Position numbers and translations under genes: made by a program. A stretch of DNA of 64,000 bases. Origin: Winogradskyella sp. Its GTDB lineage: Bacteria; Bacteroidota; Bacteroidia; Flavobacteriales; Flavobacteriaceae. The stretch spans positions 1 through 64,000 of the forward strand of contig PBLD01000007.1 in assembly GCA_002722255.1 (NCBI GenBank). Reading direction: 5' to 3'. Below, piece after piece: positions 19,866-28,058 of this stretch; the first letter of the stretch is position 1; every line of letters begins with the position of its first letter. Under the pieces are notes generated by a model, which saw nothing but the letters and a program-made list of their open reading frames with translations, searched no databases and was not told the DNA's origin.

Positions 19866-20096
19866 ATTATTTTTAAGCCATTCTGTCACAAAAAATAACA
19901 GAATAGCATTTATTTAAAAGTATTAATAATTAACTTTATGCTGAATATCAACGCATTAGAAGATATTCAAAGTTATTCACACCTGTAATAATTCAATTGT
20001 TATGCCATTACCTTTAGGACATCTTAAAAGTTTTTTTTACTAAAAGTGTAACAATGTACAAACACCTCCATCTATAGAATAAAGCAATTGTTTTTT

Positions 20097-20648
20097 TTGA
20101 CATCAACCAATCAAAATATCGAGCAGTTATTAGTGCTTTGTAAATCTTGTAACCAACGTGCGCAGTTAGAAGTTTACAATAGATACAACAAAGCCATGTA
20201 TAACACAGCTTTGAGAATTGTAAAAGATTCTTATAAAGCTGAAGACATTATGCAAGAATCATTTTTAACGGCTTTTACAAAACTTGAAACTCTGGAGGAT
20301 ACCAAATTATTTGGTGCATGGTTAAAACGTATTGTGGTGAATAATAGTATTGCACATTACAACAAAACCGTAAAACAAAATGAAGTGCCTTTAGAAACAG
20401 TAATGTATAAAGTTGAAGATGATAAAGGCATTGAAGAGCATAGCCAAAACAATGATAAGGTGAAACAAATAATAAGTATGATGAAAACCTTAAAACCTAA
20501 TTATAGCTTAGGGTTAACACTTCATCTCATTGAAGGCTATGATTATGATGAAATCTGTAATATTATGGACATATCTTATGCTAATTGCAGAACCATGATA
20601 TCCAGAGCTAAAGAAAGTTTAAGAAAGAAATTAGAGCTAACAGCTTAA
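20097..20648 (+). CDS. ECF-type RNA polymerase sigma factor
   Basis: About 183 residues. Region 2 is seen in YNRYNKAMYNTALRIV and YKAEDIMQESFLTAF, region 4 in LTLHLIEGYDYDEICNIM and ISYANCRTMISRAKESLRKKL. No ATG exists at the N-terminus; TTG at 20097 giving (M)TSTNQNIEQLL is the most likely start, right after a run of eight T. A TTG at 20088 is an alternative. An anti-sigma-like membrane protein gene follows 11 bases later. Target promoters are unknown, but the operon probably controls itself. Confidence 0.9.
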   Translation: MTSTNQNIEQLLVLCKSCNQRAQLEVYNRYNKAMYNTALRIVKDSYKAEDIMQESFLTAFTKLETLEDTKLFGAWLKRIVVNNSIAHYNKTVKQNEVPLETVMYKVEDDKGIEEHSQNNDKVKQIISMMKTLKPNYSLGLTLHLIEGYDYDEICNIMDISYANCRTMISRAKESLRKKLELTA

Positions 20649-20659
20649 ATGATTGATGT

Positions 20660-21223
20660 ATGGAAAAAGATACTTTAGACAAATTATTTGATAATTTAAA
20701 AGGTGAATTTGATATCAACGAACCAAACACAGGTCATCAAGATCGTTTTTTAGATAAGCTTAATACTAATACAGTAGCTTCTACTGAGCCAAAGAAGTCT
20801 TCTGATTTTAATTGGAAACCATTTTTAGCCATAGCAGCTTCTTTAGTGATTTGCTTAGCTGTATTTACAACATCAAATGCACAACCAGAAGTTATGGACT
20901 TAGCAAGTGTTTCGCCTGAAATGTCCGAAACTCAAGATTTCTTTACAACCACAATCAATGCTGAATTAAAAAAGCTAAACAATGAGCGTTCACCATTAAC
21001 CGAGCAAGTTATTACAGACGCTTTAAACCGAATTGAACTGTTAGAAAAAGATTATCAAAAACTAAAAACAGATTTAACTGAAAGCAACAAAGACCAACGT
21101 GTTATTTATGCTATGATCAGCAACTTTCAAAACAGAATAGATGTTTTAAACACAGTTCTAGAACAAATTGAAATTATTAAAGAATTAAAAACCAACAGTG
21201 ATGAACCAAAAAATACATTTTAG
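20660..21223 (+). CDS. membrane anti-sigma-like protein
   Basis: A 187-residue protein with a ~50-residue cytosolic N-terminus (DKLFDNLKGEFDINEP, GHQDRFLDKL), one membrane helix (~residues 53-70, PFLAIAASLVICLAVF) and a periplasmic part with a coiled coil (ITDALNRIELLEKDYQKLKTDL). Its place directly after an ECF sigma gene and its topology fit an anti-sigma factor, although no zinc-binding His-Cys motif is present. Its 3' end overlaps the next gene by 23 bases. Confidence 0.78.
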   Translation: MEKDTLDKLFDNLKGEFDINEPNTGHQDRFLDKLNTNTVASTEPKKSSDFNWKPFLAIAASLVICLAVFTTSNAQPEVMDLASVSPEMSETQDFFTTTINAELKKLNNERSPLTEQVITDALNRIELLEKDYQKLKTDLTESNKDQRVIYAMISNFQNRIDVLNTVLEQIEIIKELKTNSDEPKNTF

Positions 21224-22289
21224 AATAGCAATTCTTCTATTGCTAATGCCATTTATAACGTTGGCAAACACAAACGCTGAAATTGCAAAAACCACGAAAG
21301 AGCGTAACATTAAAAAGTCCTTTAATGTGTCCTCTAATGCAACGCTAAAAATCAGTAATAGTTACGGTAACCTTGAAGTGATTACTTGGGACCAAAACAA
21401 AATAGATTTTGATATCACCATAAGAGTAACTGGTAACAATGAAGAGAAAGTTGTAGATCGCTTAGAAAATATTGATGTTGACTTTTCATCGAGCAACGAT
21501 TATGTGTCTGCCATTACCAAGATCGGAAAAAACAGTAAAAACTGGTGGAATTGGGGAAAAAAGATGAATCTTAAATTAGAGATTAACTATGTTGTAAAAA
21601 TGCCAATGTCTGGTAATGTTGACCTCAATAACGATTATGGCTCTATAAATCTAGATAGGCTTGAAGGTAACGCAAAAATAATTTGTGATTATGGCAAAAT
21701 AACCACAAAAGAACTACTATCCGACAATAATGAAATCCGTTTTGATTATACTAATAACAGTTACTTTGAGTACATTAAAGGCGGAAGAATTAATGCAGAT
21801 TACAGTGGCTATACTGTAGCAAAAGCCGAGAACTTAAAAATTAATGCAGACTATACAAAATCTGTTATTGAAGCTGCTGAAAACATAGAATATGTATGTG
21901 ATTACGGTTCTCTAAAAATTGACAACGTTAACAATCTTAGTGGCAATGGTGACTACTTATCGCTTAGGTTAGGTAACGTTTATAAAAATGTGAGAGTAAG
22001 AGCAAACTATGGGTCTTTAAAGATAGATCGCATCGCTTCTAAAGCAAATAATGTAGATATTGATTCTGAGTTTATGGGCATTACTATTGGTTATGATAGT
22101 AATTACAGTTTTGATTTTGATATCAATTTAGAATACGCCTCATTGAGAGATTCAGATGCATTTAATTTTACCAACAAGGAAGTCGATTCTTTTGAAAAAA
22201 AATACAATGGTTATCACGGCTCTAAAGGCTCTGGCAACTATGTAAAAATAAAGTCTCAGTACGGAAGCGTAAGCTTTAAACAGCAATAA
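21201..22289 (+). CDS. exported DUF4097-like beta-solenoid protein
   Basis: About 362 residues with a signal peptide (ILLLLMPFITLANT). The rest is rich in short repeated strands such as NDYGSINL, CDYGKITT, CDYGSLKI, ANYGSLKI and SQYGSVSF, typical of the adhesin-like DUF4097 right-handed beta structure. The ATG at 21201 is preferred to the GTG before it. It overlaps the anti-sigma gene by 23 bases, so it belongs to the sigma operon. Likely periplasmic or outer-membrane-facing; exact role unknown. Confidence 0.82.
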   Translation: MNQKIHFRIAILLLLMPFITLANTNAEIAKTTKERNIKKSFNVSSNATLKISNSYGNLEVITWDQNKIDFDITIRVTGNNEEKVVDRLENIDVDFSSSNDYVSAITKIGKNSKNWWNWGKKMNLKLEINYVVKMPMSGNVDLNNDYGSINLDRLEGNAKIICDYGKITTKELLSDNNEIRFDYTNNSYFEYIKGGRINADYSGYTVAKAENLKINADYTKSVIEAAENIEYVCDYGSLKIDNVNNLSGNGDYLSLRLGNVYKNVRVRANYGSLKIDRIASKANNVDIDSEFMGITIGYDSNYSFDFDINLEYASLRDSDAFNFTNKEVDSFEKKYNGYHGSKGSGNYVKIKSQYGSVSFKQQ

Positions 22290-22326
22290 TCAAAAAAAAC
22301 GAACAGTAACCAAACAATTCAAAAAC

Positions 22327-23052
22327 ATGAAATTATTAAAATCAATTATGCTAGTCGCTTTTCTCTTTAGTGTAACAACATCTTGTGCACAATGGGGAAA
22401 ATGGAAAAAAGTTAAAGGAGATGGAAACATCACTACAGAAAACAGATCTACTGGCGATTATGATGGCTTAAAATCTGCAGGACCAATGAACTTTAAATTG
22501 GTACAAGGCAAAGAAGGAAGCATTACGATTGAAGGCGATGCTAATCTTATGGAATACATTGTTACCAAAGTTGAAGATGGTAAACTTGTTGTAAAGGTTA
22601 AAGACGGAATTAATCTAAGACCAACAAAGACTATTATTGTAACAATTCCTTATGAATCTATCAACTCTGTATCCTTAGCTGGCTCTGGCGATATTGAAAA
22701 CTCAGGGACTATAAAATCAGACCATTTTGATGTGTCTATTGCAGGTTCTGGTGATATAGATTTAAAGATTAACTGTGATTCTGTTGAAAGCAGTATTTCT
22801 GGCTCAGGCGATATAGAGTTAAGTGGTTCTACCAAAGATTTGACAACAAAAGTAACTGGCTCTGGAGATTTTGATGGCAGCGATTTAGACAGTACTAATG
22901 TTACTGCAAAAATCACAGGTTCTGGTGGTGCTAACGTGGTTTGCAATGGTGAACTTAAAGTGAGAATTACAGGTTCTGGTGATGTAAAATATTCAGGTAA
23001 TCCAACCAACAAAGACACTAAAGTAACAGGTTCTGGTAGCGTTAGCAACTAG
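22327..23052 (+). CDS. head GIN domain-containing protein (DUF2807)
   Basis: A 241-residue exported protein: a signal peptide, with Cys near 20 in TTSCAQWGKW, then NFKLVQGKEGSITIEGD, which opens the DUF2807 auto-transporter-adhesin head domain. The C-terminal half holds seven [SAT]GSG turns (AGSGDIEN, AGSGDIDL, SGSGDIEL, TGSGDFDG, TGSGGANV, TGSGDVKY, TGSGSVSN), one per coil of a beta-solenoid. It lies 37 bases after the DUF4097-like gene and closes the sigma factor operon before a terminator. Ligand unknown. Confidence 0.88.
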   Translation: MKLLKSIMLVAFLFSVTTSCAQWGKWKKVKGDGNITTENRSTGDYDGLKSAGPMNFKLVQGKEGSITIEGDANLMEYIVTKVEDGKLVVKVKDGINLRPTKTIIVTIPYESINSVSLAGSGDIENSGTIKSDHFDVSIAGSGDIDLKINCDSVESSISGSGDIELSGSTKDLTTKVTGSGDFDGSDLDSTNVTAKITGSGGANVVCNGELKVRITGSGDVKYSGNPTNKDTKVTGSGSVSN

Positions 23053-23806: not shown

Positions 23807-25333
23807 TTACTTCGTCCCAGCTTCAAAATCTACTTTCCATTTTTCCCATTCGTCTAAGAAATAGTTAAGTATAATTGGGTTGTCTAAAGTATTCTGTTTT
23901 GTGTCTGCAATGGTAATGTCCTTAGGAAAAATAAAGGCTTGCTCTATTTGGTTTGGGTTAAGATATTTTAAATCTTCTGGCAAAGCTTTAGTATCTACTT
24001 TGCTGTCGTTTCCTTCATGTCTGGCAATAATAAATCCCCAATCTCCAAACGATGGTATATACGTGTGATATGGTTGTACGTCTTCAAAAGCTGATGCCAA
24101 GGTATTGTTGATGCAACTAAAGACTTTGTTTGAGAAATAAATTTCACCAGATTGTGTTACAAAAACACCATCCTTTTTAAGGTTTCGCTTTGCCATTAAA
24201 AAAAACTGCTTGCTGTACAATCTTGCCAATGCTTGATTTGTTGGGTCTGGCAAATCTGCAATAATGACATCGTACTTTTCTGTATTATTAAAAAGATAAG
24301 TAAACGCATCTTCTGGTATAAGGTTTACTTTTTCATTTTTTGCAGCATCAGCGTTAATGTCCTTTAGATATTTATTCTCTTTTGCCAAATAAAACATGGT
24401 ACTATCAATATCTACAACATCTACACGCTGCACAGAACTATGCTTTAGGACTTCTCTACTCGCTAAGTTTTCGCCACCACCAAGAATTAAAACACGCTTT
24501 GGATTGTAATTCATAGCTAAAGGAATATGCACCAAAGACTCATGATAACGATGCTCATCTGAAGATGAAAATTGTATAACTCTATTAAGATACAACCTAA
24601 CATCACCTTGTGTTTTGGTCATTACAATTTTTTGATATGGTGTTTGCTCATTCAATACAATAGGACGTTTGTATATTTTCTGATCCCAAACTTTTAAAAG
24701 TTTGCCTCCAAACAACACTAAAACGACCAAAGCAATAACAGCCAAAAAGCCAAAAATGCTGTTTCGTTTTTTGTCTTTGAGTAAGGTATAATTCAAAAGA
24801 ATACCTAAGACAATATTTACAATTCCGAAGATTAGCGACGAATAGTACAAGCCAACAAATGGCAGTATAATAAATGGGAAAATTAAGGTGGCAATAAGTC
24901 CGCCAATATAGTCTAAGGACAATACGTTAGAAAGGTTGTTTTTAATGTTACTCTCCTCTAAAGCAAAGGTTAGTAATGGCACTTCCATACCTGTAAGTAA
25001 GCCTATTACAAAAATGATAGCCAAACAACTAATTTGCAATATCATTGGAGACACGTACACAAATAGCATATAAAGCAGTGGCACAGAAATACCTCCAATA
25101 AAACCAAGCAGATACTCTACATTGATAAAAAATGTGAGTGGTTTGTCCTTAAAAAATTTAGACAAAAAGGCACCTATTCCCATAGAAAACAGATACACAC
25201 CAATAATAATAGAGAACTGTCTTACACCATCTCCCAAAAAATAAGTTGCAGTAGTACTAATTAATAATTCGTAGATGATTGAGCATAAACCTGCAATAAA
25301 TACAGCAAATGGAATTAGTGCTTTTTTATTCAT
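23807..25333 (-). CDS. membrane-bound spermidine synthase-like aminopropyltransferase
   Basis: About 508 residues in two parts. The N-terminal ~215 residues form seven or eight membrane helices (IPFAVFIAGLCSIIYELLIS, IIIGVYLFSMGIGAFLS, VIGLLTGMEVPLLTF). The C-terminal ~270 residues are a class I methyltransferase-fold aminopropyltransferase: YLNRVIQFSSSDEHRYHESL, the AdoMet loop LILGGGENLASREVL (GGGE where SpeE has GGGD), VDIDSTM, and the catalytic-type IIADLPDPT. The domain would use decarboxylated AdoMet from the speD product encoded 2.3 kb away. The start at 25333 leaves 39 bases to the divergent lipoprotein gene. Amine substrate unknown. Confidence 0.88.
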   Translation of the reverse strand: MNKKALIPFAVFIAGLCSIIYELLISTTATYFLGDGVRQFSIIIGVYLFSMGIGAFLSKFFKDKPLTFFINVEYLLGFIGGISVPLLYMLFVYVSPMILQISCLAIIFVIGLLTGMEVPLLTFALEESNIKNNLSNVLSLDYIGGLIATLIFPFIILPFVGLYYSSLIFGIVNIVLGILLNYTLLKDKKRNSIFGFLAVIALVVLVLFGGKLLKVWDQKIYKRPIVLNEQTPYQKIVMTKTQGDVRLYLNRVIQFSSSDEHRYHESLVHIPLAMNYNPKRVLILGGGENLASREVLKHSSVQRVDVVDIDSTMFYLAKENKYLKDINADAAKNEKVNLIPEDAFTYLFNNTEKYDVIIADLPDPTNQALARLYSKQFFLMAKRNLKKDGVFVTQSGEIYFSNKVFSCINNTLASAFEDVQPYHTYIPSFGDWGFIIARHEGNDSKVDTKALPEDLKYLNPNQIEQAFIFPKDITIADTKQNTLDNPIILNYFLDEWEKWKVDFEAGTK

Positions 25334-25372: not shown

Positions 25373-25933
25373 ATGAATAAAAAAATTATAACTGGTCTTG
25401 CTTTAACTAAAAAAATAACGTTGACTGCAGCTGTTGTTGCCTCGTTAACACTTCAAAGTTGTGGCGACGACGATCCAAGTCCACGCATTAAAGATGCACA
25501 GCAAGAAACAGTTTACGAATCTACACAAGGTGTTATCACTGAGGTTGAAGAAGTAGAACCAGGAAATGATTATAAAATCATCGACGAGCGTTTAATTGAC
25601 GATAAAGATAAATCTCTTGCTATTGTACACACATTAGAGGGAACAACAGATACATTATCTTTAAGAAAAATGAAAAATGACGAGTCATCTTACAGTCGTC
25701 ATTCGGGTTTAAGAAGCATTCTGTACTACTCGTTAGCAGCTTCTTATTTTAACAGAAGTTTACGTAACGTTACTCCAAACCAAAGTAACTACAAAAATGC
25801 TTCTGCTTATAATAAATCTACAGGATTAAAAAACGATTTAAGAAGCTCTGCAACATCTCGAAGAGTAAGTGTACCAGGAAAATCATCTAGAGGATATGGC
25901 AGCGGAAAGTCGTTTAGATCGTTTGGAGGATAG
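25373..25933 (+). CDS. YgiB-like lipoprotein with C-terminal Gly-Gly
   Basis: About 186 residues: signal peptide with lipobox TLQSC followed by GDDD, an acidic run resembling Bacteroidetes surface-export signals. The middle is acidic; the last ~60 residues are basic and rich in Ser, Arg and Gly, ending KSFRSFGG. E. coli YgiB, also encoded next to a glutathionylspermidine-synthetase-like ligase, ends in a similar Ser/Arg/Gly tail closing in GG. The ligase gene here overlaps this one by 38 bases. The protein may be the ligase's acceptor; that is inference. A -7 element fixes the ATG at 25373. Confidence 0.75.
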   Translation: MNKKIITGLALTKKITLTAAVVASLTLQSCGDDDPSPRIKDAQQETVYESTQGVITEVEEVEPGNDYKIIDERLIDDKDKSLAIVHTLEGTTDTLSLRKMKNDESSYSRHSGLRSILYYSLAASYFNRSLRNVTPNQSNYKNASAYNKSTGLKNDLRSSATSRRVSVPGKSSRGYGSGKSFRSFGG

Positions 25934-27077
25934 TCGTTTTAAAGAAATAAAACGTCTTAAAAAGAAACACGTTCCACATCGCTTACACTGGTATTTAGAA
26001 GAAGACTATTTTTCTGAAGAATTACTTGGCATATACCGTTCTGAGGTAGAGCAACTACGTCGTATTTCTGATGAAGCGTTTTATTTATTTCAACGTGCCA
26101 CTGACAAAATTATAGCCGAACATAAATTAGGAGAACTTGGTATTCCCCTATCGTTTCAAAAATGTATTGAACATAGCTGGAAAAGCAAGAATAAGCATCC
26201 ATTTCTTTATGGTCGTTTTGATATTAATGGAGGTTTAAAATCTGATTATGGTCGCATTATCGAGTTTAATGCAGACACATGCAGCACATTGCCTGAGACT
26301 TTATTGTGGCAACCACTTCAATTAGAACAACTAAAGGGAAATCCTCAAAGTTTTAATACACTTAAGTTTGATATAAAAGATGCTTTGTCTAACCTAAAAT
26401 CTTATTTAGGTAAAGACAAACCTGTTTTTCTGGGTACTTCTTTTGGTTATATTGAAGACAAAGAAAATGTTAACTGCATTATTGATATAGCTTACGAAGC
26501 TGGCTATAAACCATTTTATTCAGACTTGGAATATGTTATTTTTTCGGATGAAGGTGTGTTTCATCAAATTGGTGATGAATATGAAGATGTTGATGTGCTT
26601 TTTAAAATGATTCCCTGGGATTGGATGTTTAATGACGAGCCTGAATTGGCACACATCCTTTCAGACTTAATCTTAAACAATAAAGTTGTGGTTTTAAATC
26701 CACCTTATACAGCTATTTGGCAGAATAAAAAGTTTTTGGCTTATATCACACAGAACTTCCCGAATAACATTTTAGCTGAAACGTATTTGAGCAAAGAGCC
26801 TAGCTTATACAATTATGTACAAAAACCTGTTTATGGTCGTTTGGGTGAAAATATATCTATAGAAGCTATGGGTAATTCTGAAGCCACATCTAAAGGTGAT
26901 TTTGGACATCAGGATATGGTTTTTCAAAAATTCTATCCATTGAACAAGGATGAAGAAAATTATTTTTATCAATTAGGGATGTTCTACACATCAAGAGCGT
27001 CTGCTATAAACTTAAGAGCACAAGAATCAAAGATTATTACTGATGATTGTGAGTTTATGTCGCATTTTATAATTTAA
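25896..27077 (+). CDS. glutathionylspermidine synthetase-like ATP-grasp ligase (YgiC-like)
   Basis: About 393 residues. Family motifs: FLYGRFDING and IIEFNADTCSTLPETLLWQ (Mg/ATP-site region), FKMIPWDWMF, NPPYTAIWQNKKFL, FPNN, and KPVYGRLGENI (ATP-grasp Lys and glycine loop). The family joins a carboxylate, such as the Gly of glutathione, to a polyamine amine using ATP. No amidase domain is fused, as in YgiC/YjfC. Start chosen at the ATG 25896 because the upstream GTG lies deep inside the lipoprotein gene. The 38-base overlap with the lipoprotein gene suggests coupled translation. Confidence 0.87.
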   Translation: MAAESRLDRLEDSRFKEIKRLKKKHVPHRLHWYLEEDYFSEELLGIYRSEVEQLRRISDEAFYLFQRATDKIIAEHKLGELGIPLSFQKCIEHSWKSKNKHPFLYGRFDINGGLKSDYGRIIEFNADTCSTLPETLLWQPLQLEQLKGNPQSFNTLKFDIKDALSNLKSYLGKDKPVFLGTSFGYIEDKENVNCIIDIAYEAGYKPFYSDLEYVIFSDEGVFHQIGDEYEDVDVLFKMIPWDWMFNDEPELAHILSDLILNNKVVVLNPPYTAIWQNKKFLAYITQNFPNNILAETYLSKEPSLYNYVQKPVYGRLGENISIEAMGNSEATSKGDFGHQDMVFQKFYPLNKDEENYFYQLGMFYTSRASAINLRAQESKIITDDCEFMSHFII

Positions 27078-27100
27078 TTTATTTTCTCAAAATAATAGTG

Positions 27101-27706
27101 ATGAACTATTTAAGGTTCGTTTTAGCTTTTTTCCTAATCTTAACATCTTGTTCTAAAAAGAACAAGAATGAATTTATCATAAAACTACCTCATTATTCTA
27201 AACAGATAGAAATAAATGGCATCAAAGAATTTGACACCTTAGTAACATGGGATTGGTATAAAGATAATTTTGCTGATGACAGGAGATGTTACCGAATTCA
27301 GAATTCAGAATTAGGTGTTATTTTAGAAAATGGCATATTACCAAAATATACAAAAAGTTTTAAGCAGTTGACAATTAAAACTCCCATACCTCCTAATAAA
27401 TTTGGGAGCATTTCGATAAAAAAATGGCTTATTGATATAAAAACAAATTATTCAGAAGAACACCCCAACTATAAATTTACAGTAATTGATTCTATCATTA
27501 TTGCAAATAAAAAATTTGGTGTAGTTTCGATTCACAGAGATTGGATTGATGAATACACAATCAGAAATTTATTTATGACAACTATTAATGACGAAGAAAT
27601 AGTGTTTGATTTTTACACCAACCTACCGAATTCAGAAGATTTTTATTCGCAATCTTTGAATATGATGAAAACAATAAAAATAACTAAATTAAATCACGAG
27701 AAATAA
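27101..27706 (+). CDS. lipoprotein of unknown function
   Basis: About 201 residues with a lipoprotein signal (FFLILTSC, then SKKNKNE). The mature part mixes beta strands and contains no domain I recognise. It follows the ATP-grasp gene by 23 bases on the same strand, so it may belong to that operon. Its last 23 bases overlap the end of the convergent speD. The ATG at 27101 is preferred to the GTG just before it. Confidence 0.7.
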   Translation: MNYLRFVLAFFLILTSCSKKNKNEFIIKLPHYSKQIEINGIKEFDTLVTWDWYKDNFADDRRCYRIQNSELGVILENGILPKYTKSFKQLTIKTPIPPNKFGSISIKKWLIDIKTNYSEEHPNYKFTVIDSIIIANKKFGVVSIHRDWIDEYTIRNLFMTTINDEEIVFDFYTNLPNSEDFYSQSLNMMKTIKITKLNHEK

Positions 27707-28058
27707 TAGAGATAGCCTCTCCCCTTTCAATCTGCCTAATAACAACTTTATCTGAACTGAAAGACTTCATTAATAGCTCCTGAATCTTTTTCGCATCAAA
27801 AGGTTTACATGAAAAGATATCTACAGCAGCAAACTGATGTTCTGGCCAGGTGTGTATACTTACATGGCTTTCTTCTAAAAGAATGAAACCAGTAACACCA
27901 ATAGGCTCAAACTGTTTGTATGACTCATTAACCTTGGTAAGCTGTAATTCTTCAACTATAGCATTTAATACTGTTTTTATAGTAGGTATAAATGATAGTG
28001 TATCTGCATTACAGTTATACACATCCCAAGTAATATGTGTGCCCAGAGAGGTTTTCAA
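27684..28058 (-). CDS. speD: S-adenosylmethionine decarboxylase proenzyme
   Basis: A 124-residue class 1B AdoMetDC. It self-cleaves between Glu63 and Ser64 in LLEESHVSIHTWPE to make the pyruvoyl cofactor. His69 and Cys84 (IFSC) match the other catalytic residues of the Thermotoga enzyme. The product, decarboxylated AdoMet, is the aminopropyl donor for the membrane aminopropyltransferase at 23.8-25.3 kb. It lies 12 bases downstream of a lipoprotein gene on the same strand and overlaps the convergent lipoprotein gene by 23 bases. Confidence 0.95.
   Translation of the reverse strand: MKTSLGTHITWDVYNCNADTLSFIPTIKTVLNAIVEELQLTKVNESYKQFEPIGVTGFILLEESHVSIHTWPEHQFAAVDIFSCKPFDAKKIQELLMKSFSSDKVVIRQIERGEAISIISRDLI

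Follow-up and report, generated by a model that had tools for sequence, protein, structure and literature searches.

A lipoprotein with a conserved tiny C-terminal residue as candidate protein substrate of a YgiC-like polyamine ligase in Winogradskyella

The window, by which we mean the whole stretch of 64,000 nucleotides of Winogradskyella sp. DNA that was analysed, contains a lipoprotein gene running into the gene of an ATP-grasp ligase, with polyamine synthesis genes on either side of the pair. The features of this region are:

23807..25333, reverse strand: spermidine synthase (aminopropyltransferase) with an N-terminal membrane part (NF002956, E 1e-165; PF01564, E 1.3e-43)
25373..25933, forward strand: lipoprotein of 186 aa, the proposed substrate (lipobox LQSC, with Cys30 at 25460-25462)
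25493..25876, forward strand: predicted folded domain of the lipoprotein, residues 41-168 (AlphaFold2)
25880..25930, forward strand: lipoprotein tail, residues 170-186, predicted to be flexible
25889..25900, forward strand: RGYG motif of the tail, residues 173-176, a variant of the RGGFG of the family
25925..25930, forward strand: C-terminal Gly-Gly, the proposed amidation site (from sequence and tail statistics)
25896..27077, forward strand: GspS/YgiC-like ATP-grasp ligase, 393 aa from ATG (PF03738, E 1.6e-67)
27684..28058, reverse strand: S-adenosylmethionine (AdoMet) decarboxylase (TIGR03330, E 1.7e-32; PF02675, E 2.5e-33)

The preliminary description of this DNA had pointed to a lipoprotein that ends in FRSFGG and whose gene overlaps that of the ligase, and both observations hold: the C-terminal sequence is ...SSRGYGSGKSFRSFGG, with FRSFGG as its final letters, and the overlap measures 38 nt when the ATG at 25896 is taken as the ligase start. 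This ATG is the probable start (GATATGGCA from 25893), with a GTG at 25869 as a possible alternative; the residue numbers of the ligase used below are counted from 25893, that is, they are one above the ATG-based numbering. The spermidine synthase gene, whose profile scores were computed on 23807-25330, is transcribed divergently from the lipoprotein-ligase pair. Directly 3' of the ligase there is a lipoprotein-like ORF (27098-27706) with no Pfam or NCBIfam match, and further upstream in the window the stretch 20088-23052 holds a sigma-factor-like gene and, after it, the genes of two exported proteins (21198-22289 and 22327-23052), which by eye we take to resemble DUF4097/DUF2807 proteins and the second of which carries repeated GSGD-type motifs.

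The AlphaFold2 model of the lipoprotein has a mean pLDDT of 79.4 over its whole length, but this average conceals two distinct parts: in residues 41-168 the means of ten-residue blocks lie between 84 and 98, with one block at 77, and in residues 171-186 they fall to 53 and 56. Such a combination of a folded part and a low-confidence tail fits the expectation for a flexible substrate tail. The last 17 residues of the protein include no Asp or Glu and 3 Lys/Arg, and the RGYG motif stops 10 residues short of the C-terminus. A Pfam search of the lipoprotein matched 0 families, DUF1190 (PF06693) included, and membership in DUF1190 was rejected on this count. The confidently predicted domain of residues 41-168 has no counterpart in the PDB at E<=0.001 in a fold search with the model (best E 0.55), a result that does not in itself exclude any fold. 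When the lipoprotein alignment was used as a profile against the PDB, the matches listed were weak (best E 0.0065) and to prion protein chains throughout, and we judged them to be due to chance.

The ligase scores 228.7 bits against the GSP_synth profile (PF03738; curated cut-off 29.3), its sole Pfam match, which spans residues 33-393 of 394 and covers the synthetase domain only; no amidase domain was found in it with Pfam or NCBIfam. A bifunctional glutathionylspermidine synthetase/amidase was considered and rejected, the score being 79.1 versus 882 bits for the NCBIfam equivalog and the N-terminal amidase domain being absent. By sequence, the closest PDB entries are YgiC (3e-28) and YjfC (3e-23), then trypanothione synthetase and GspSA, and a Foldseek search with the ligase model (mean pLDDT 94.7) returned YjfC (7uk6, 6.9e-29), GspSA (2io8, 2.2e-26) and YgiC (7uk8, 1.2e-24) as its top PDB entries. 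We take R316, D318, E330, N332, K498, K533 and R598 of GspSA to be its ATP/Mg2+-binding and acyl-phosphate/catalytic residues. These letters were confirmed at the seven positions of the GspSA sequence, and they align with the identical R108, D110, E124, N126, K279, K311 and R375 of the window ligase; across 68 ligase sequences R375 is almost never replaced and the other six do not vary. The ligase also has two adjacent acidic residues, E188-D189, in the vicinity of E391/E392 of GspSA, presumably the spermidine-binding residues, but the register of the alignment is off by one residue and the pair was discarded as evidence. The closest named relatives of the ligase, among the matches listed, are Winogradskyella records with 81-96% identity. 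Of 199 genomes sampled within the family of the window, 2 have PF03738 above its cut-off, one of them being the genome of the window itself (at E<=0.001 it is found in 4); the domain is likewise above its cut-off in 32 of 395 Bacteroidota genomes, own genome counted, and in 107 of 121 Campylobacterota genomes.

For a wider comparison of ligase partners, loci were drawn from: 1) the best 80 of 531 GTDB ligase loci from named genomes; 2) viral contigs, in sets of 80 and 30 loci that stem mostly from the same contigs; 3) genomes of the same family and phylum, which contributed 33 ligase loci; and 4) 19 hand-chosen regions (2 from E. coli, 10 from plasmids and 7 from phages). A ligase was present in 237 of 241 loci, and dropping 26 repeats of the same record left 211. 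A selection rule that used a signal sequence (or a start lost at a contig end), a loose motif and composition, and that was blind to the last four residues, picked a partner in 176 of these; an earlier, stricter rule had missed the clade of the window itself. Removal of tails more than 70% alike left 135 non-redundant pairs, which were curated to 130 by leaving out five pairs and replacing three picks, edits that were made with the tails known and hence not blind. Those left out are L062 and L066, which look frame-disrupted, L090 and L096, where the ORF is not a partner of this kind, and L027, the partner of a remote ligase, which ends in Leu; the replaced picks (L113, L137 and L146) were moved to a tail-bearing neighbour. 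The rule found no partner in 35 of the 211 loci, 15 of which hold a tail-bearing ORF on inspection (L012, L024, L026, which is cut off, L028, L067, L075, L088, L089, L099, L135, L140, L141, L147, L197 and L212), and the partner of L015 was found elsewhere in its genome; neither these 15 nor L015 are counted in the 130. Among the other unpicked loci, several are truncated where the contig stops, and some have no tail-bearing ORF. In Campylobacterota, 80 tails were hand-picked from 109 lipoprotein places located with the family model, which includes the tail, and were then examined with a profile that does not include it.

The ends of these partners are far from random: 81 of the 130 curated partners have a GG end and 126 a last residue that is Gly, Ser or Ala, against 8.6 +- 2.8 (maximum 18) and 77.2 +- 5.4 (maximum 96), respectively, when the last 25 residues of each partner are shuffled 2000 times, an expectation that overstates significance in that the pairs are related by descent. 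Re-adding L027 gives 126 of 131 for the latter count. The last residue is Gly in 86, Ser in 31, Ala in 9 and Glu in 4 of the 130, and the 80 Campylobacterota lipoproteins show a similar range, with 44 Gly, 32 Ser and 4 Ala. The uncurated set gives nearly the same picture, with 78 GG and 125 G/S/A ends among the 135 (Gly 61%, Ser 24% and Ala 7% at the last position), and GG occupies the C-terminus in 58% of these 135 tails and any other of the last 25 positions in at most 13%. Ends in GG are found in 9 of 16 pairs from the same family and phylum, 34 of 47 from GTDB and 9 of 11 from E. coli and plasmids, and are the minority form in phages and viral contigs (26 of 61 non-redundant pairs). In background proteins they are rare: 0 of 57 non-overlapping window ORFs of at least 100 aa (an overlap rule that leaves out the window lipoprotein itself), 5 of 985 background ORFs of related loci, one of the five being the partner in L113, and 0 of 134 lipobox-like background ORFs of related loci end in this way. 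The preliminary description had proposed conservation of GG in homologues as a check on its idea; the very end is indeed strongly conserved, but Gly-Gly is not obligatory, and a strict Gly-Gly rule was discarded in view of the frequent Ser and Ala ends in both the 130 partners and the 80 Campylobacterota tails. The rule is instead a tiny C-terminal residue, with GG as its commonest form, on an acid-poor tail: in the 130 partners, Asp and Glu account for 0.4% of the final 20 residues versus 9.2% of the body. Of the 130, 57 carry a strict [RK]GG[FYWLM]G motif, which in 54 of these ends 7-14 residues before the C-terminus; in Campylobacterota the motif is looser and its distance from the end more variable. 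The exceptions to the tiny end are the four viral-contig partners in Glu (L145, L166, L181 and L182; three GGE and one VGE), which could be substrates, decoys or processed proteins, and the Leu-ending partner of the remote ligase in L027. As judged from the sequences, the tail rule spans exported proteins that are otherwise barely alignable.

A ligase phylogeny built with FastTree implies at least 26 changes between Gly and not-Gly at the end of the partner, but only four between tiny and other residues. Independent pairs were used for 863 column/residue tests, and no ligase column clearly tracked the last residue; among so many tests a mean difference of 5.5 of about 19 pairs, the highest seen, is not taken as a signal. 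Together, the Gly/not-Gly switches and the lack of a tracking column mean that a specific Gly pocket is not seen.

The two genes also travel together. Among 121 Campylobacterota genomes searched at E<=0.001, 107 have both, 13 have neither and one (G666) has a lipoprotein match only, which is weak and partial; 100 of the 108 lipoprotein matches exceed the curated cut-off, and the family model used for this count includes the tail, unlike the profile behind the 80 tails above. In at least nine Campylobacterota genomes (G592, G597, G600, G603, G621, G626, G651, G652 and G682) the two genes are separated by some 7 kb or more, or sit on separate contigs, and the tails in these nine end in GG (4), GS (4) or GA (1). 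In Bacteroidota, the window-type lipoprotein occurs in 10 of 395 genomes, all 10 of which have the ligase; in one (G437) more than 1 Mb separates the two genes on a single contig, and the tail ends in RSFSG. Of the 32 Bacteroidota genomes with PF03738, 22 are without the window-type lipoprotein, and in eight of these 22 (L005-L012) a different small exported protein, whose tail is similar, is encoded next to a YgiC-like ligase. The ligase-lipoprotein linkage thus exceeds mere neighbourhood. Two further arrangements were encountered. In one Campylobacterota genome (G692) two tandem lipoprotein genes (C1:167214-167828 and C1:167913-168515) stand just before a single ligase gene. The remote ligases of L024 (2474-3862, reverse complement), L025, L028 and L029 each precede a long protein of a different type that also has a Gly/Ser/Arg tail, e.g. 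SGGFSGG, and in three of these four loci a DUF350-like membrane protein is encoded upstream.

Genes of polyamine synthesis flank the pair in the window and in its nine nearest relatives among the matches listed (L034-L042). The spermidine synthase of the window is probably the source of the amine for the ligase, and the AdoMet decarboxylase probably supplies the aminopropyl donor. Within the flanks examined of the best 80 of 531 GTDB loci, relatives of these two genes occur in 23 and 19 loci, respectively, so that polyamine synthesis genes adjoin only a minority of the ligases. An AdoMet decarboxylase is also found near the ligase in 6 of 80 viral loci, five of the six being nearly identical, and a homospermidine synthase adjoins the pair in phage Motura (L126, with its duplicate L165) and in the viral locus L149. 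The neighbouring genes hence point to a polyamine as the amine, and to spermidine in the window, although most loci are without such genes nearby.

The lipoprotein-ligase pair is present in large phages and viral contigs (L126, 1803-4628, which is phage Motura; L127, L128, L130, L132 and L133-L212), and DUF350 accompanies it in 22 of 80 viral loci. Those viral ligases that were compared with PHROGs fall in the class of moron/auxiliary genes, and the matching lipoproteins in the class unknown. Of six phage partners compared with DUF1190, two score over the cut-off, one just under it and three have no match. Bacillus phage FADO (L131, 2910-5219) and a Bacillus plasmid (L125, 2910-5225) have in common a short lipoprotein ending in KSSGFGG together with a remote ligase, and the gene adjoining this ligase is annotated in L125 as poly-gamma-glutamate hydrolase family.

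As an account of the pattern observed in the tails and the strict conservation of their last residues, the pairing and co-occurrence of the genes, the intact catalytic residues and the polyamine linkage in part of the loci, we consider it reasonably probable that the ligase amidates the C-terminus of the lipoprotein with spermidine or a relative, recognising the tail and acting in the cytoplasm before export. In the reaction that we infer for the window lipoprotein, its C-terminal carboxylate would be activated by phosphorylation with ATP and then form an amide linkage with an amine of the polyamine, which in this organism would most likely be spermidine, synthesised by the products of the flanking AdoMet decarboxylase and aminopropyltransferase genes. 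The ligase would recognise a flexible, acid-poor tail, with an RGGFG/SGYG-type motif that often lies about 10 residues before the tiny last residue (Gly, Ser or Ala), and such a residue would fit the narrow site that holds the glutathione Gly in GspSA. Amidation is placed in the cytoplasm, ahead of export, because by eye the ligase has no signal peptide and it belongs to a family that uses ATP; in the window, translation of the lipoprotein end would overlap that of the ligase start. Once the lipoprotein had been exported, its tail would be strongly cationic and would lie across the membrane from the ligase, where it could bind anionic envelope polymers.

One alternative is that the ligase makes a free small peptide-polyamine of the glutathionylspermidine kind, which the lipoprotein binds or senses, with the Gly/Ser-rich tail serving as a spacer. 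The fold and the catalytic residues are those of glutathionylspermidine synthetase, Gly/Ser-rich tails are generally common and some ligase loci are without a tail-bearing ORF, all of which would suit such a product; nevertheless we regard it as unlikely, in that what is constrained is the final one or two residues and not the Gly content, and a spacer needs no such constraint. Further, YgiC is reported to be without GspS activity in the accessible part of PMC12506659, which cites Sui 2012. Conversely, the C-terminus might be modified with an amine other than a polyamine, such as an amino lipid, a cell-wall diamino acid or a protein in a ubiquitin-like conjugate. GG ends are typical of ubiquitin-like conjugation, and 57 to 61 of the best 80 of 531 GTDB loci show no relatives of the window polyamine genes within the flanks examined. 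Against this stand the use of polyamines by the precedents in the ligase family and the recurrence of AdoMet decarboxylase and of spermidine or homospermidine synthase beside the pair, phage and viral contigs included, and we hold another amine to be quite improbable. The beta-grasp fold of ubiquitin-like proteins was also considered for the lipoprotein, whose model had E 0.55 as its best PDB match, a missing match that excludes no fold.

A last possibility is that the tail end is kept for other reasons, such as escape from C-terminal proteases or PDZ-like binding, and that the pairing reflects translational coupling only. The genes do overlap in the window and in its nearest relatives. However, 83 of the 135 pairs are without any gene overlap, and of these 43 end in GG, 34 more in another of the G/S/A ends and 6 otherwise; with 77 of 83 retaining the tiny end, reading-frame overlap was rejected as its cause. 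The same ends persist where the genes are far apart, and presence and absence of the two genes agree in 120 of the 121 Campylobacterota genomes, so that we regard this explanation as very improbable.

Beyond the window, it is quite possible, although we advance this tentatively, that bacteria and their phages have a portable polyamine tag for protein C-termini. ATP-grasp ligases would recognise one kind of short tail, poor in acidic residues and with an RGGFG-type motif often some ten residues ahead of a tiny last residue, on several exported proteins of little mutual similarity, and would amidate it with a polyamine; large lytic phages would carry the kit and re-dress the envelope of the infected cell. 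One phage has its own homospermidine synthase, and some viral contigs have an AdoMet decarboxylase. The proposal offers an explicit protein substrate and a recognition rule for the widespread YgiC/YjfC ligase family. If it is true, a dedicated bacterial enzyme would amidate the C-terminus of a protein with a polyamine, polyamines would have a direct covalent role in the envelope, and YgiB, YjfM, the PRK04081 group and the phage lipoproteins would share a common function.

Among known systems, the YgiB-YgiC and YjfM-YjfC pairs of E. coli resemble the window pair in the family and fold of the ligase, which RefSeq names peptide--spermidine ligase for both YgiC and YjfC, and in having the partner gene directly upstream. 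YgiB ends in SSRSMGG, bearing out the earlier remark that this neighbour of the ygiC gene has a GG end, and YjfM in RGHWGG; both tails have RGG[FY]G and a terminal GG. In contrast to the E. coli partners, the lipoprotein of the window matches no Pfam family, DUF1190 included, and where E. coli has yjfIJKL or ygiD it is flanked by the genes of spermidine synthase and AdoMet decarboxylase. In the group of the window lipoprotein, 7 of 54 aligned members match DUF1190 (PF06693) at E<=0.05 (best 9.4e-4), so that the likeness to DUF1190 is faint. A possible common layout of lipobox, GYxxGR-like segment, RGGFG-type motif and GG end was considered; a profile comparison gave a probability of 96% over only 21 aligned columns, at the GYxxGR segment, and a lipobox and a tail were noted by alignment. 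PRK04081/NF003146 of Campylobacterota shares the tail pattern and the ligase partner with the window, and is matched by 42 of the same 54 members at E<=0.05; the window lipoprotein itself reaches 17.8 bits (E 0.0017), below the cut-off of 194. On sequence grounds it is a divergent relative of PRK04081/UPF0323 and is not assigned as a member. We take the PRK04081/NF003146 family to be UPF0323, including Cj0371 of Campylobacter jejuni. Cj0371 is described as polar and as affecting chemotaxis (PMC4944492, PMC6104132), and by term counts the words spermidine and lipoprotein are absent from the main text of these two papers.

In the accessible part of PMC11237479, a PSP-associated operon comprises an ATP-grasp ligase, DUF350 and DUF1190, and the ligase-lipoprotein association is noted as operon context; that part presents DUF1190 as a metal-chelating lipoprotein, mentions neither a substrate role nor a tail, and places some relatives in a PSP-type envelope stress context. 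In the open-access literature searched, as far as its text was available, YgiB, YjfM or PRK04081 proteins were not found as ligase substrates, and no statement of a natural substrate for the YgiC/YjfC family was encountered. GspSA and trypanothione synthetase share the ATP-grasp fold and the catalytic residues with the window ligase. Those enzymes form an amide bond between a C-terminal Gly and spermidine; the window ligase differs from GspSA in lacking the amidase domain and in that its proposed substrate is a protein and not glutathione. C-terminal polyamine chemistry of this kind is not wholly new, and the preliminary description went too far in calling such a protein modification undescribed: a 2023 paper reportedly, to judge by its title, concerns peptide-spermidine ligase activity of YgiC and YjfC. 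A further precedent, of 2025, is the attachment of spermidine to the C-terminal Gly-Gly carboxylate of SUMO (+127.15 Da), with a ubiquitin-spermidine conjugate made in vitro, according to the accessible part of PMC12270671. The SUMO and ubiquitin conjugates described there depend on E1 and E2 enzymes, belong to eukaryotes and involve unrelated proteins, and their likeness to the product proposed here lies in the spermidine on a Gly-Gly end (PMC12270671).
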